Of a DNA stretch of 64,000 nt, positions 13,404 to 18,429 are shown in pieces. The notes beneath the pieces are model-generated. The model ran no database searches. It was not told where the DNA came from and saw only the letters and a list, made by a program, of their open reading frames with translations. This stretch comes from Halobacteriovoraceae bacterium (GTDB lineage Bacteria; Bdellovibrionota; Bacteriovoracia; Bacteriovoracales; Bacteriovoracaceae), in the NCBI GenBank assembly GCA_002712005.1, contig PASP01000009.1, positions 1-64,000 of the forward strand. Direction: 5' to 3'. A program made the position numbers and the translations under genes. The number at the start of each line of letters is the position of its first letter. Position 1 is the first letter of the stretch.

Positions 13404-15767
13404 ATGGCCATTGAATCAGTTAAACGTCGGGGAAAGACCAAGGATGCGGTCATTGAAAGTAAAGACCAACGTTGGCACTGTCGTAATCGAATTACCCTTG
13501 TATTTGGATCAAATGACGTAGAAGAGTTAGATACTTATCTCTATACGGATGGTGGCCTTCAATGGCAGACCGTCAATTTTCACCAAGCTAAGAGTAAGGC
13601 CATCGAAGAAATTCTCGATAATTGTATCGATGAATACTATCGTGGGCACGTGACTGAAGTTCACTGTAGACTTAGTGATGATGGGCTTAGAGTAACAGTT
13701 GAAGATAATGGGATTGGATTTCCTTTAGAGAAAATTCCCCAAGTTTATTCTGAGTTTAGGACAGGTTCTAAATTCAAAGATGAAGAAGTCGATGAGAAAG
13801 GATTTCTTCACCGAACTCTTGGTCAAAACGGACTAGGGGCAGCTGCCACTTGTTTAACGAGTGATGAATTTAAAGTAACGGTTCGCCATTACAATACTAA
13901 GAAAGAACAAGTTGTGACTTTCATTGATGGAGCTCTTAAAACCAATAAAGGTAAGAAGAAGACCTTTTCTGGTCACTCTGGAGTGAAGGTTGAGTTAGAG
14001 CTTTCTAAAGAAGTTTATAAGAATGCAGTTGTTGATAAAGAGTTACTGAGAAAGAGAATTATTGATCTGGCCTATAATAATCCAGGACTCACTTTCTACT
14101 TCAATGGAGAAAAGTATCTCTACAATAAAGGCCTTTTTGAGTTGGCCCAAAGAATCTCTCCTGAAACAGCTCAAAATATAGTGGATGAGCACTATATTTA
14201 TGAAGATGAAAATAGCAAAGGTAAGAAAGTCAAAGGAAGGATTGATATGAATCTTTCCATCTGCTTTGATAAAATGTCAGAGGAAAGGGAGAACTTTGTA
14301 TCATTTGTAAATTCAACTCCTACTTTTGATGGTGGTTTCCACCAAGACCGCTTTAGAAGAATTTTCATTAATAGTTTAAAAGATAAACTTGAGAAACAGG
14401 CCAAGAAAGAAAAGGTAAACCTTGTTGATAACGACTTTCTTACGGGAATGACTTTTGTTCTCGGAATAACGATGCCTAATCCCAGGTTTGAGTCTCAAAC
14501 AAAGAGAAAACTGGTTAGGGATCTCAACTTAGAAAAGGCCATCGAGAAAGTGATGGATGCGGCCATGCCTAAGTTTATCCGCAAGAATAAGGAATATCTT
14601 GAGCAAATTATGGAAAGGGCCAAAAGCCGCCATAAGTTCCAAATGCTCAAGGAAGCTTCTAAGAAAGCGAGAAAACAGAAGAAGCAAAGAGTTGAGAAAC
14701 TTCTCGATGCCAATGAAAGAAGAAAGCGTGACCTTTGTACACTCTTTATTTGTGAAGGGGACTCTGCAATTGGTGGACTTCGTTCGGCTAGAAATAAACT
14801 CTATCACGGTGGGATTGCCTTAAAAGGAAAACCCATGAATGTGGCCCAGGCCAATATTAAAGATATTCTTAACAACCAAGAATTTTCGGACATCATGGCC
14901 TCTATTGGCCTAACACTTGGCCAACCAGTTGACTGGAAGAATTTACGTTACTCTAAAATTGTCTTCCTTGCTGACTCTGATGTTGATGGTGGCCATATCA
15001 ATACGTTACTGACGAATTTCTTCTTCACGTTTTGGCCAGAGCTCTTTGAAAATGAAGCGATTCAAATTGCTAAAGCTCCTCTTTTTGAGGTGGTTACCGA
15101 GCGTAAGACTGTTTACGTTGAAACGCCCAATCAACTTGAAGAGCTTAAAAATAAAGGTGAGTATAAAATCAAGGCCATCCACAGAAATAAAGGTTTGGGG
15201 GAGATGAGTCCCGAAGCTTGGAAATATGTAATGAGTAAAGAGTCTTATACTGTGATTAAAGTTGAAAAGGCGACTCAGGCCAAGGCCATGCTCAATGTCT
15301 GTTTTGGTAAAGATTCAAATCCTAGAAAGGCGCTTCTCATTGATGGGGCAAGTGATGGAGCTGAGCAAATCATATTATCGACTGGATTAGATGAAGTGGC
15401 GGAAACCCTTCTTGAAGATGCGGATATCAGTCAGGCGGCCATGAAAACAGCAAAGAAAACAACAAAGAAAACAACAAAGAAAACGGCTAAGAAAACGGCT
15501 AAAAAAGTAGCAAAGAAAACAGCAAAGAAAACAGCAAAGAAAACAGCAAAGAAAGTAGCCAAGAAAGCCGCCAAGAAAACAGCTAAGAAAGCAACTAAGA
15601 AAACGGCCAAGAAAGCGACAAAGAAAACAGCAAAGAAAACGGCCAAGAAAGCGACAAAGAAAACAGCAAAGAAAACAGCAAAGAAAACGGCCAAGAAAAC
15701 AACAAAGAAAGCAAGCAAGAAAAAGAAGTCCGGCGGCGGAGGTCTCCTCGGTCATCTGGAGTACTAA
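13404..15767 (+). CDS. parE: Type IIA topoisomerase subunit B (ParE/GyrB family) with lysine-rich tail
   Basis: ATPase subunit of a type IIA DNA topoisomerase. The GHKL ATPase domain has EILDNCIDEYY (catalytic Asn, about residue 70), DNGIGFPL and the GQNGLGAAAT lid; the TOPRIM metal site has EGDSAIGG (about 449) and DSDVDGG (about 523); HRNKGLGEM follows. From about residue 680 to 770 the sequence is almost only Lys, Ala, Thr and Val in KKTAKK/KKVAKK units, like histone H1 tails, then a Gly-rich end. The start is ATG at 13404 with AAGGA 10 nt before it; a TTG two codons earlier is less well placed. The symbol is by family and by its subunit-A neighbour; gyrase function is not excluded. Confidence 0.88.
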   Translation: MAIESVKRRGKTKDAVIESKDQRWHCRNRITLVFGSNDVEELDTYLYTDGGLQWQTVNFHQAKSKAIEEILDNCIDEYYRGHVTEVHCRLSDDGLRVTVEDNGIGFPLEKIPQVYSEFRTGSKFKDEEVDEKGFLHRTLGQNGLGAAATCLTSDEFKVTVRHYNTKKEQVVTFIDGALKTNKGKKKTFSGHSGVKVELELSKEVYKNAVVDKELLRKRIIDLAYNNPGLTFYFNGEKYLYNKGLFELAQRISPETAQNIVDEHYIYEDENSKGKKVKGRIDMNLSICFDKMSEERENFVSFVNSTPTFDGGFHQDRFRRIFINSLKDKLEKQAKKEKVNLVDNDFLTGMTFVLGITMPNPRFESQTKRKLVRDLNLEKAIEKVMDAAMPKFIRKNKEYLEQIMERAKSRHKFQMLKEASKKARKQKKQRVEKLLDANERRKRDLCTLFICEGDSAIGGLRSARNKLYHGGIALKGKPMNVAQANIKDILNNQEFSDIMASIGLTLGQPVDWKNLRYSKIVFLADSDVDGGHINTLLTNFFFTFWPELFENEAIQIAKAPLFEVVTERKTVYVETPNQLEELKNKGEYKIKAIHRNKGLGEMSPEAWKYVMSKESYTVIKVEKATQAKAMLNVCFGKDSNPRKALLIDGASDGAEQIILSTGLDEVAETLLEDADISQAAMKTAKKTTKKTTKKTAKKTAKKVAKKTAKKTAKKTAKKVAKKAAKKTAKKATKKTAKKATKKTAKKTAKKATKKTAKKTAKKTAKKTTKKASKKKKSGGGGLLGHLEY
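15442..15724. repeat. Degenerate 12-15 bp tandem repeats encoding the KKTAKK tail
   Basis: Imperfect tandem units of the type GCAAAGAAAACA, varying mostly at the Ala/Thr/Val codons, cover about 280 bp inside the topoisomerase B gene. The variation is largely synonymous or Ala/Thr/Val exchange while the Lys-Lys pairs are kept. Long open frames on the opposite strand here are by-products of the repeat. Confidence 0.85.
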
Positions 15768-15851: not shown

Positions 15852-17273
15852 ATGGAAGAAAATTATTTACACTCCCTCGACTCCGTCTCTTTAACTGAAG
15901 TCGTTAAAGAAGAGTATCGTACCTACCAGATCTACACACTCATGGATCGTGCCATACCTTATCTTCAGGATGGTCTCAAACCTGGTCAGAGGAGAATTCT
16001 CTATACCCTTTATCGCAATCAAAGCAAGGGGTTAACTAAAGTGAGCTCTGCAACTGGACTTGTACTTACTCTTCACCCACATGGTCCTGCTTCTATTGAA
16101 ACGGCCATTGTGAATATGGCCCAAGATTTTACTTTCTCTAATAATTATCCCCTTATTGATAAGAAAGGGTATTTCGGAGAGAGAATGGAACCTCAACCAG
16201 CAGCATCTCGTTATATTGAATGTAAGCTTGGTGATGTGGCCAAATTCATTCTCTTTGATGATATGAACCAAGTTGAAATGGTTCCTAATTATGATGAGAC
16301 CGTTCAAGAACCTGTACATCTCTTACCAAAGCTTCCCATTATGTTACTCAATGGTTCAGAAGGAATTGGTACCGGTTTTTCATCGGTCATCCCTAGCTTC
16401 AATCATATGGATATTGCCAATTCAATGATCCAATATATCCGTACAGATAAACCAAAACGTCTTAAACCATGGGTTAATTACTATAGTGAAGATATTATTG
16501 ATGAAAAAACAAAGTACACATTTCCTATGCGAATTGAGGAAATTGGTGGAAAGATTGTCATCACTGAACTTCCTAGAGGATATGATGCAAAGAAGATTTA
16601 TCGTTTTCTCAATAAGCATATCGAATCAGATTTTATAAAAGACTATATCGACAGTTCTGTTGATAATGAGATTCATATTGAGTTGCTCTTTAAGAGGGGA
16701 GTTGAACCTAAACTCGAAGAAGTTCGAAAAGAGATGCTGGTAACAACTTCTCTTACACCTAATTACACTCTCATTAGTGAAAGAGGGGTGAGAATTTTCA
16801 ATCGTCCGGAAGAGATTATTCAAATCTTTACTGAACAACGTATAAAAGTTGTAAAGAGACGTTATGAACTTCTTTGTGAAGAATATGAAAGGCGAATTCG
16901 CCAAAATAATGAAATTATAAAATTCATTAAGCAAAAAGAGTATGAAGTAGCAACAAAGTCTAAGAATAGACGTTCATTTGTTGAGCATCTGACTAAGAAA
17001 AAATTTACATTTAGTGACTATCTTGCAGATATGCCTATTTATAGGATGACTAAAGAAGAAGTTGAAAAGAGAAAACTTCTCGTCAAAGAAGACTCTGCAA
17101 AACTTAAAGAGTTTCAAAAAATTGCAAAGTCCGACAAGCTCGTTCGTACTAAACTCATTGAAGAACTCGAAGAAGTGAAAACTAAACTTTCTACTTGGTT
17201 AAGAGATCAGGCCAAAATTAAGAAAGAATTAAAGAGAAAATTAGAAAAACAGAGTAAAAAACGTAAAAAATAA
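15852..17273 (+). CDS. parC: Type IIA topoisomerase subunit A (ParC/GyrA family) lacking C-terminal domain
   Basis: DNA-cleaving subunit. LQDGLKPGQRRILYTLY opens the winged-helix region; the catalytic tyrosine is Tyr121 in AASRYIECKL, preceded by GYFGERMEPQPAASR; NGSEGIGTGFSS follows. At 473 residues the protein ends just after the coiled-coil region with a Lys-rich tail (KRKLEKQSKKRKK), so the beta-pinwheel DNA-wrapping domain of GyrA and most ParC proteins is absent. Short subunits of this kind are known from T4-like phages. AAGGAAGG lies upstream of the ATG, 84 bp after the B subunit, so the two are probably one operon. Confidence 0.88.
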   Translation: MEENYLHSLDSVSLTEVVKEEYRTYQIYTLMDRAIPYLQDGLKPGQRRILYTLYRNQSKGLTKVSSATGLVLTLHPHGPASIETAIVNMAQDFTFSNNYPLIDKKGYFGERMEPQPAASRYIECKLGDVAKFILFDDMNQVEMVPNYDETVQEPVHLLPKLPIMLLNGSEGIGTGFSSVIPSFNHMDIANSMIQYIRTDKPKRLKPWVNYYSEDIIDEKTKYTFPMRIEEIGGKIVITELPRGYDAKKIYRFLNKHIESDFIKDYIDSSVDNEIHIELLFKRGVEPKLEEVRKEMLVTTSLTPNYTLISERGVRIFNRPEEIIQIFTEQRIKVVKRRYELLCEEYERRIRQNNEIIKFIKQKEYEVATKSKNRRSFVEHLTKKKFTFSDYLADMPIYRMTKEEVEKRKLLVKEDSAKLKEFQKIAKSDKLVRTKLIEELEEVKTKLSTWLRDQAKIKKELKRKLEKQSKKRKK

Positions 17274-17439: not shown

Positions 17440-17868
17440 ATGAGTCTTACCAAGGCCGATATCGTAGAACGAGTATACAAAGAAGCGGGCTTTTCCAAGA
17501 AGGAAGCTGCTGACCTAGTAGATCTTGTTTTCAAAATCATCAAAGATACTCTTGCTCGTGGGGAGAAAGTAAAAATTTCTGGTTTCGGAAATTTCTCTAT
17601 TCGCGATAAGGCAACTCGTGTGGGGCGTAACCCTCAGACTGGAGATGCAATGGAAATCTCTGCAAGAAGAGTACTTACCTTTAAGCCTTCACAGGTTCTT
17701 AAAGAAGACGTAACGGCCAGATATGCCCACCGTCTAGATGACAAAGGTAAAGAAGATACATCTATTCCTGCGAAGGAAGGATCAAATAGAGCATTATCAA
17801 GCTTCATGAATAATACAGAAGAAGATTCTGGAAGCGATGATGATGACAATTCAAATGGGTTCTTCTAG
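17440..17868 (+). CDS. IHF/HU-family DNA-bending protein with acidic tail
   Basis: Nucleoid-associated protein that bends DNA as a dimer. Residues 1-95 are a complete HU/IHF domain, most like IHF alpha: LTKADIVERVYKEAGFSKKEA, then KVKISGFGNFSIRDK and the arm GRNPQTGDAMEISARR with the Pro that intercalates into DNA. Beyond it is an extra tail of about 45 residues ending in an Asp/Ser/Asn-rich acidic cluster (EEDSGSDDDDNSNGFF), not present in ordinary IHF or HU. A perfect GGAGG lies upstream of the ATG. A MerR-type regulator follows after 39 bp, a pairing usual for ihfA in delta-proteobacteria. Confidence 0.9.
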   Translation: MSLTKADIVERVYKEAGFSKKEAADLVDLVFKIIKDTLARGEKVKISGFGNFSIRDKATRVGRNPQTGDAMEISARRVLTFKPSQVLKEDVTARYAHRLDDKGKEDTSIPAKEGSNRALSSFMNNTEEDSGSDDDDNSNGFF

Positions 17869-17907: not shown

Positions 17908-18429
17908 ATGGAGATCATCGAGATTCCCAACAAGTCTGCATTTAAATTAAATGAAGTATGTAGCATAACAGGTGTTAAGCCTTATGTTCTACGTTTTTGG
18001 GAATCTGAATTCGATGAGATTGAACCTATGACTTCCTCCACTGGTCAGAAATTATTTGGACCAAGAGATATCGAAGTTATCGCCACTATCAAGGATCTTC
18101 TTTTTAATCAAAAGATGTCGATTGAAGAGGCCCGCTTTTCTTTGAAGAGTCATTTAGAGAAAGCTTCTTCTCTACATGAGCCTGAAACTGAAACTGAGCT
18201 TGATTCAGCTGCCTATTCTGAGATGAATAACAGTAGTGAAGGGATACTTGTGGAAGAGACAGCGGCAGATCTTCCTCCAGCATTCAATGCCACACCTTTT
18301 GAAAAAGAGGGGGCTTCTCAAAGTCCCATTTCCTTTCAGAGAATGTCTTTAAGCGATAGTGATCTTGAAAAATTAGTAATGGCAAAGTCTCTACTGAGAG
18401 GAATTGTCGATCATCAAATTCATAATTAA
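17908..18429 (+). CDS. MerR-family transcriptional regulator
   Basis: DNA-binding protein with an N-terminal MerR winged helix (residues 9-75): FKLNEVCSITGVKPYVLRFWESEF, then TGQKLFGPRDIEVIATIKDLLF and the helix QKMSIEEAR. The remaining 95 residues are acidic, Glu/Ser-rich and lack any recognisable ligand domain or metal cysteines, so it resembles the ligand-less MerR proteins found beside ihfA. It follows the IHF gene closely, in the same direction, and its stop overlaps by 4 bp that of the convergent prenyl synthase gene. Targets are unknown. Confidence 0.87.
   Translation: MEIIEIPNKSAFKLNEVCSITGVKPYVLRFWESEFDEIEPMTSSTGQKLFGPRDIEVIATIKDLLFNQKMSIEEARFSLKSHLEKASSLHEPETETELDSAAYSEMNNSSEGILVEETAADLPPAFNATPFEKEGASQSPISFQRMSLSDSDLEKLVMAKSLLRGIVDHQIHN

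Follow-up and report, generated by a model that had tools for sequence, protein, structure and literature searches.

The B–A topoisomerase pair

Why does a type IIA topoisomerase carry a histone-H1-like tail on its ATPase subunit, and to what kind of enzyme does such a subunit belong? The question is raised by a locus in the genome of a Halobacteriovoraceae bacterium (GTDB family Bacteriovoracaceae, bacteria of predatory type), within a window of 64,000 nucleotides of contig PASP01000009.1. A sequence-only reading of this DNA had described an otherwise complete ATPase–TOPRIM protein ending in a lysine- and alanine-rich (K/A) tail, and had proposed that the tail may stand in for the DNA-wrapping C-terminal domain (CTD) that the partner A subunit lacks. 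Pfam and PHROG searches identify the protein as the 787-amino-acid B subunit of a second type IIA topoisomerase, encoded on the forward strand at 13404–15767 with an ATG start at 13404 and an N-terminal sequence, MAIESVKR, that is kept in congeners. Four Pfam domains (HATPase_c, DNA_gyraseB, Toprim and DNA_gyraseB_C) span residues 66–643, in agreement with the description of the protein as otherwise complete. The GHKL ATPase domain (PF02518; residues 66–161; 13599–13886, forward strand) keeps an EEILDNCIDE-type motif in the family alignment. It is followed on the same strand by the transducer domain with its SQTK loop (PF00204; residues 258–420; 14175–14663), the TOPRIM domain (PF01751; residues 446–550; 14739–15053) and the GyrB C-terminal domain (PF00986; residues 591–643; 15174–15332), which marks the end of the conserved core and scores 28.2 bits, slightly below the 29.8 cut-off. 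Across Bacteriovoracaceae the residues Q365-T366-K367 of the SQTK loop, EGDSA at 451–455 and the DSDVDG acidic residues D524, D526 and D528 are invariant.

The A subunit lies downstream on the forward strand (15852–17273) and comprises 473 amino acids, forming a breakage–reunion core and coiled coil without a beta-pinwheel CTD. Its sole Pfam domain, PF00521, covers residues 33–439 and positions 1–431 of the 432-position model, and the catalytic residues R120 and Y121 are invariant across Bacteriovoracaceae. A Pfam search of the full 473 residues found neither a ParC-type CTD nor a GyrA CTD with its GyrA-box, bearing out the claim that A is without a DNA-wrapping domain. Together, Pfam and alignment show that the GHKL ATPase, TOPRIM and Tyr-Arg motifs of the type IIA superfamily are all intact in the B–A pair. 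Within residues 79–84 of A, 13 family rows mostly have Ala and Thr/Ser at the two quinolone-contact positions, where GyrA and ParC have Ser and Asp/Glu; A is thus without the usual quinolone-contact residues.

Distribution of the pair and of topoisomerase VI

The 3.96-Mb genome encodes exactly two PF00521 proteins, an 825-amino-acid GyrA and the short A, and GyrB is the only B-type subunit besides 13404–15767; no further type IIA subunit was found in this genome beyond gyrase and the B–A pair. GyrA and the short A occur together in 30/30 Bacteriovoracaceae genomes (G001 in pieces), and GyrA occurs alone in all 24 genomes from other Bdellovibrionota families. The A subunit of topoisomerase VI (topo VI-A, PF04406) has the reverse pattern, being present in 0/30 family genomes versus 21/24 of the others. 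Fisher's exact test on the contrast, treated as a table, gives p ~4e-12; phylogenetically it may represent a single switch. The topo VI pattern agrees with published work on Bdellovibrio bacteriovorus, in which gyrase and topo VI are reported to be present and topo IV absent (PMC11302465). These reverse patterns suggest that the decatenating enzyme was swapped, topo VI against the B–A pair, possibly with topo VI as the enzyme replaced. By its gene content the family probably relies on the pair for decatenation, and if this is right, the Bdellovibrionota present a case of one decatenase type exchanged for another.

Among the matches listed, records for Bacteriovoracaceae, Halobacteriovorax and Bacteriovorax account for the named B homologues with 65–82% core identity, and matches listed among GTDB species genomes come only from Bacteriovoracaceae before dropping to ordinary GyrB and ParE proteins at ~30% identity. 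The order of B and A is constant across the loci examined. Downstream lie genes for an HU/IHF-family DNA-binding protein (17440–17868, forward strand; PF00216, 107 bits) and a MerR-type regulator (17908–18429, forward strand; PF13411); the HU/IHF gene follows the pair in 24/63 loci, many others being too short or rearranged, and the MerR-type gene is conserved along with it. A recent prophage origin of the genes is unsupported, given the constant B–A order, the conserved chromosomal neighbourhood and the single family clade.

Placement outside gyrase and topoisomerase IV

The best profile matches of both subunits point towards T4-type topoisomerase II. B scores 461 bits with phrog_543, the T4-type large subunit, and 306 with the highest-scoring gyrase model, and A scores 385 bits with phrog_551; both PHROG models outscore the Pfam and NCBIfam gyrase and topo IV models. 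The predicted structure of A has T4 topo II (8yo3_A) as its top fold match in the PDB, which serves as supporting evidence only because model confidence is moderate (mean pLDDT 68.9, with the first 126 residues below 50). The B model matches gyrase, ParE, human topo II and T6 topo II equally and does not discriminate between them.

Phylogenetic trees of both subunits, unrooted and with a long family stem, place the pair more precisely. In the A tree, cellular GyrA and ParC fall on one side of a branch with support of 100/100, and phage and eukaryotic topo II group together at 100/97. The family clade (100/100) attaches between these two groups and nearer the latter, being separated from the phage/eukaryote node by ~0.55 substitutions per site and from the cellular node by 1.34. 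In the B tree, cellular GyrB and ParE together with three other phage rows split at 100 from the family and T4-type phages, and, counting against a place on the phage side, midpoint rooting sets the family beside the cellular enzymes with an SH-aLRT of only 80. In both trees the family forms its own clade outside the phage clade, between the phage/eukaryote and cellular enzymes, and the pair falls outside GyrA/ParC (100/100) and GyrB/ParE (100). These placements rule out that the pair is a topo IV whose CTD was deleted recently; as the trees are unrooted, a phage origin of the pair is only possible.

Like T4-type topo II (gp39/gp60 and gp52), the pair is split into B and A genes with an A subunit that has no CTD, some 440–490 amino acids long in the T4 type. 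Unlike the phage enzyme, it is a constant chromosomal feature and only ~30% identical, and many of its B proteins bear a K/A tail, which none of the nearest T4-type phage homologues checked possesses. Bacterial topo IV (ParE/ParC) is comparable in accompanying gyrase as a second type IIA enzyme, in having its two subunits encoded together and in its conserved ATPase/TOPRIM/Tyr-Arg core; by contrast, the pair has no ParC CTD and lacks the Ser-plus-acid pair at the quinolone-contact positions. It likewise differs from DNA gyrase, whose own 825-residue GyrA is encoded separately, in having no GyrA CTD. Eukaryotic topo II resembles it in the core motifs SNN..L, EGIGTG.S and IP.FN, in the absence of a wrapping CTD and in a lysine-rich disordered C-terminal region, and differs from it in that the family enzyme has separate B and A genes and bears its tail, a simple KKTA repeat, on B and not behind the A core.

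The K/T/A tail and its conserved end

The tail of B was found as 94 residues (681–774; 15444–15725, forward strand), confirming the earlier estimate of about 90 residues of KKTAKK and KKVAKK units. It consists solely of K, T, A, V and S, with lysine at 51%, and the probability of such a segment given the composition of the core is ~3e-45. The repeat unit is a tetrapeptide, KKTA or KKVA, encoded by 12 bp (AAG-AAA-ACN-GCN), and Tandem Repeats Finder reports a period of 12 with 23.4 copies and 81% match. Lysine codons are in strict phase, with AAA in 24/24 and AAG in 22/23 cases at the two lysine positions, and the Thr and Ala codons differ synonymously between units; this combination fits an old duplication of units followed by drift. 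AlphaFold pLDDT is below 50 over residues 636–787. A long, low-complexity K/A-rich repeat with 51% lysine and a disordered model places the tail among H1-like sequences. It resembles the bacterial H1-like proteins Hc2 and AlgP in its K/A-rich repeat units of variable number, Hc2 length varying even within a species (PMC2848022), but those are dedicated DNA-binding proteins and here the repeat is the tail of an enzyme.

The protein does not end with this repeat, as had been read: the tail is present, but 13 further residues, KSGGGGLLGHLEY, lie beyond it, of which the final seven are conserved. This C-terminal peptide, LLGHLEY (15744–15764, forward strand), has the form [LVI]-[LV]-[GD]-H-L-E-Y and is the B terminus in 6/6 congeners, and a related [LI]x[DE]M[IV]DY terminus is found in five further long-tailed B homologues. 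Such a cap occurs on 11 of the 12 longest family tails (including the ends of loci L035–L039, L042, L044 and L071–L073) and may be a docking peptide. It also bears a faint resemblance to the NLDV end of GyrB; the genome's own GyrB ends in VRNLDV.

Independence of the tail from the missing CTD

To define how the tail is distributed, we surveyed 72 distinct complete B proteins and 67 complete A frames from Bacteriovoracaceae. Of the B proteins, 45/72 have a tail with three or more KK pairs and 16 end in a short or weakly basic stretch; the other 11 are tail-less, ending no more than 13 residues past the core. The length past the core is 101–142 amino acids within the genus and 3–142 within the family, so the tail does vary between species; the variation suggested from sequence alone was between strains, and the survey covered one genome per species. 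The tail is present in each of the six congeners whose B could be read, which rules out a strain-specific expansion.

If the tail compensates for loss of the DNA-wrapping CTD from A, the two traits should travel together, and to a degree they do: tail and short A coincide in this genome and in the 45 tailed family proteins, and the genome's GyrB, partnered by a full-length GyrA, has no K/A tail. The A subunit, however, is equally short wherever we looked in the family. Complete A frames measure 465–506 amino acids in 67/67 cases, whether the partner B tail is absent or exceeds 100 residues, and ten of the tail-less B proteins partner an A of the same short length. No full-length A stands beside a tailed B in these close relatives, and alignment of the homologues revealed no co-variation between tail and CTD. 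The nearest T4-type phage homologues likewise have short A frames without a CTD, and both their B proteins and those of tail-less relatives stop at the same point, soon after the GyrB C-terminal domain. Since a short A is invariant in the family and in these phages, the CTD was not lost in step with tail gain; its absence is the older trait and stays the same whatever the tail. A itself shows no sign of domain loss, its short form being general to the family and the T4-type phage homologues. The distribution rules out a coupling of CTD loss to tail gain and largely refutes the proposal of a tail in place of a lost CTD, which we now hold to be very improbable. The tail is instead a later and variable addition to B. 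A lysine-rich B end beside a short A also occurs as an independent instance on a jumbo-phage contig of ~295 kb (L207, IMGVR_UViG_3300045971_000344).

A probable DNA tether and its rivals

On balance, we favour the reading that the pair is a CTD-less type IIA enzyme from the phage/eukaryote side of the tree, a probable decatenase and relaxase, to whose B subunit an H1-like DNA-tethering tail was added later. The pair would form a minimal B2A2 enzyme without the wrapping CTD of GyrA and ParC, probably decatenating and relaxing the chromosome alongside gyrase, and would hold the place that topo VI has in most of the other Bdellovibrionota surveyed. The K/T/A tail would have joined B once this enzyme was established and, to judge from the lysine repeats of Streptomyces TopA and the CTDs of eukaryotic topo II, is most likely a disordered, strongly positive and sequence-nonspecific tether that would keep the enzyme on DNA and gather a second duplex by raising its local concentration. 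Removal of the lysine repeats of Streptomyces TopA lowers processivity and leaves speed unchanged (PMC7398561), and eukaryotic topo II has disordered CTDs rich in lysine (PMC9674351). As the catalytic core is complete without it, the tail should modify activity and not create it, and the 11 tail-less proteins among the 72 indicate that it is unnecessary for the basic reaction.

K/A stretches are also found elsewhere in the genome, in a search that was not a full census. The genome's own topoisomerase I (TopA) carries a KKTAKK block at its N-terminus, and the C-terminal ends of its GyrA and GyrB have no K/A block. The arrangement recalls actinobacterial topoisomerase I, which has an H1-like lysine-repeat tail, except that the actinobacterial tail is C-terminal on a type IA enzyme and the repeats here are on a type IIA B subunit, with an additional N-terminal block on TopA. 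In a set of 28 genomes, TopA N-termini with more KK go with B tails with more KK (Spearman 0.71), and independent contrasts on the B-core tree retain the relationship (r = 0.60, p = 0.0013). Scored simply as present or absent, the B tail shows about three changes and so does the TopA block; a sign test would need more, and a yes/no analysis of their co-evolution was set aside for want of power. A tendency of the whole lineage towards K/A repeats may lie behind the TopA–B correlation; genomes differ widely in how many tail-like stretches they contain. Six family members (L261–L266, from G015, G024, G010, G009, G027 and G030) have a different topoisomerase I, 41–44% identical to that of this genome and without an N-terminal K/A block. 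H1-like proteins are encoded at C8:187221, C6:79457, C7:447641 and C16:210412, and four proteins of this genome that combine long K/A repeats with the absence of any Pfam domain (L232 898–1494; L233 1464–2219; L234 621–1676; L235 862–2070) are candidate H1-like nucleoid proteins.

Against a tether stands the occurrence of K/A repeats on unrelated proteins of this genome, including polyphosphate kinase, so that a general habit of the genome may account for part of the pattern. The tail could accordingly be mainly an expansion of a 12-bp repeat in a K/A-prone lineage, tolerated at a protein end with little function. The strict lysine-codon phase is what such an expansion predicts, and tail length and composition do vary freely between genera. 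Yet the units differ synonymously while all 94 residues stay within K, T, A, V and S, the tail is common to all six congeners examined and closes with a conserved peptide, and the strong K/A blocks are on TopA and B with none on gyrase. We therefore consider a largely functionless expansion unlikely.

The tail might alternatively be directed mainly at another polyanion or condensate, such as polyphosphate granules or nucleoid bodies, and not at substrate DNA. Polyphosphate kinase 1 (L236 2106–4466) has a KKTAKK-type N-terminal extension in this genome and similar lysine-rich extensions in two congeners, and the H1-like AlgP of Pseudomonas associates with polyphosphate granules (PMC9239181). 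The kinase, however, was found in only 10/28 family genomes, K/A tails on B being commoner, and AlgP-type tails bind DNA too, so the two readings are not exclusive. As the principal role of the tail we judge a target other than DNA to have little chance of being correct, and return to the DNA tether as the preferred explanation.

Relation to eukaryotic topoisomerase II

Lysine-repeat tails on topoisomerases, CTD-less topo II in T4-type phages and topo VI in Bdellovibrio are already known. No paper describing this B–A enzyme was found in the literature searched, a scope that most subscription papers fall outside, and a search with the main type IIA phylogeny outside it returned no description of a CTD-less topo II with a lysine tail in a bacterial family or of an exchange with topo VI. 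A wider reading, which we offer as speculative and think somewhat doubtful, is that the family replaced topo VI by a deep-branching topo II of the phage/eukaryote type and then added H1-like tails to its two topoisomerases that do not wrap DNA, at the TopA N-terminus and the B end, converging on the disordered, lysine-rich tail of the eukaryotic enzyme and possibly on its condensate-forming behaviour. If the placement and the tether are right, the pair is a bacterial counterpart of eukaryotic topo II, with a related core, no wrapping domain and a basic disordered tail, and it would give the phage/eukaryote side of the type IIA tree a bacterial branch close to its base. Tailed and tail-less enzymes that are 65–80% identical in the core occur naturally in the family and allow the effect of the tail to be compared.

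How eukaryotic topo II arose is a matter of debate. In the A tree, the topoisomerase A of a 735-kb uncultured phage (L268, LR756501.1) is sister to eukaryotic topo II with support of 100/98; either this contig is misassigned, or the placement could bear on where the eukaryotic enzyme came from.
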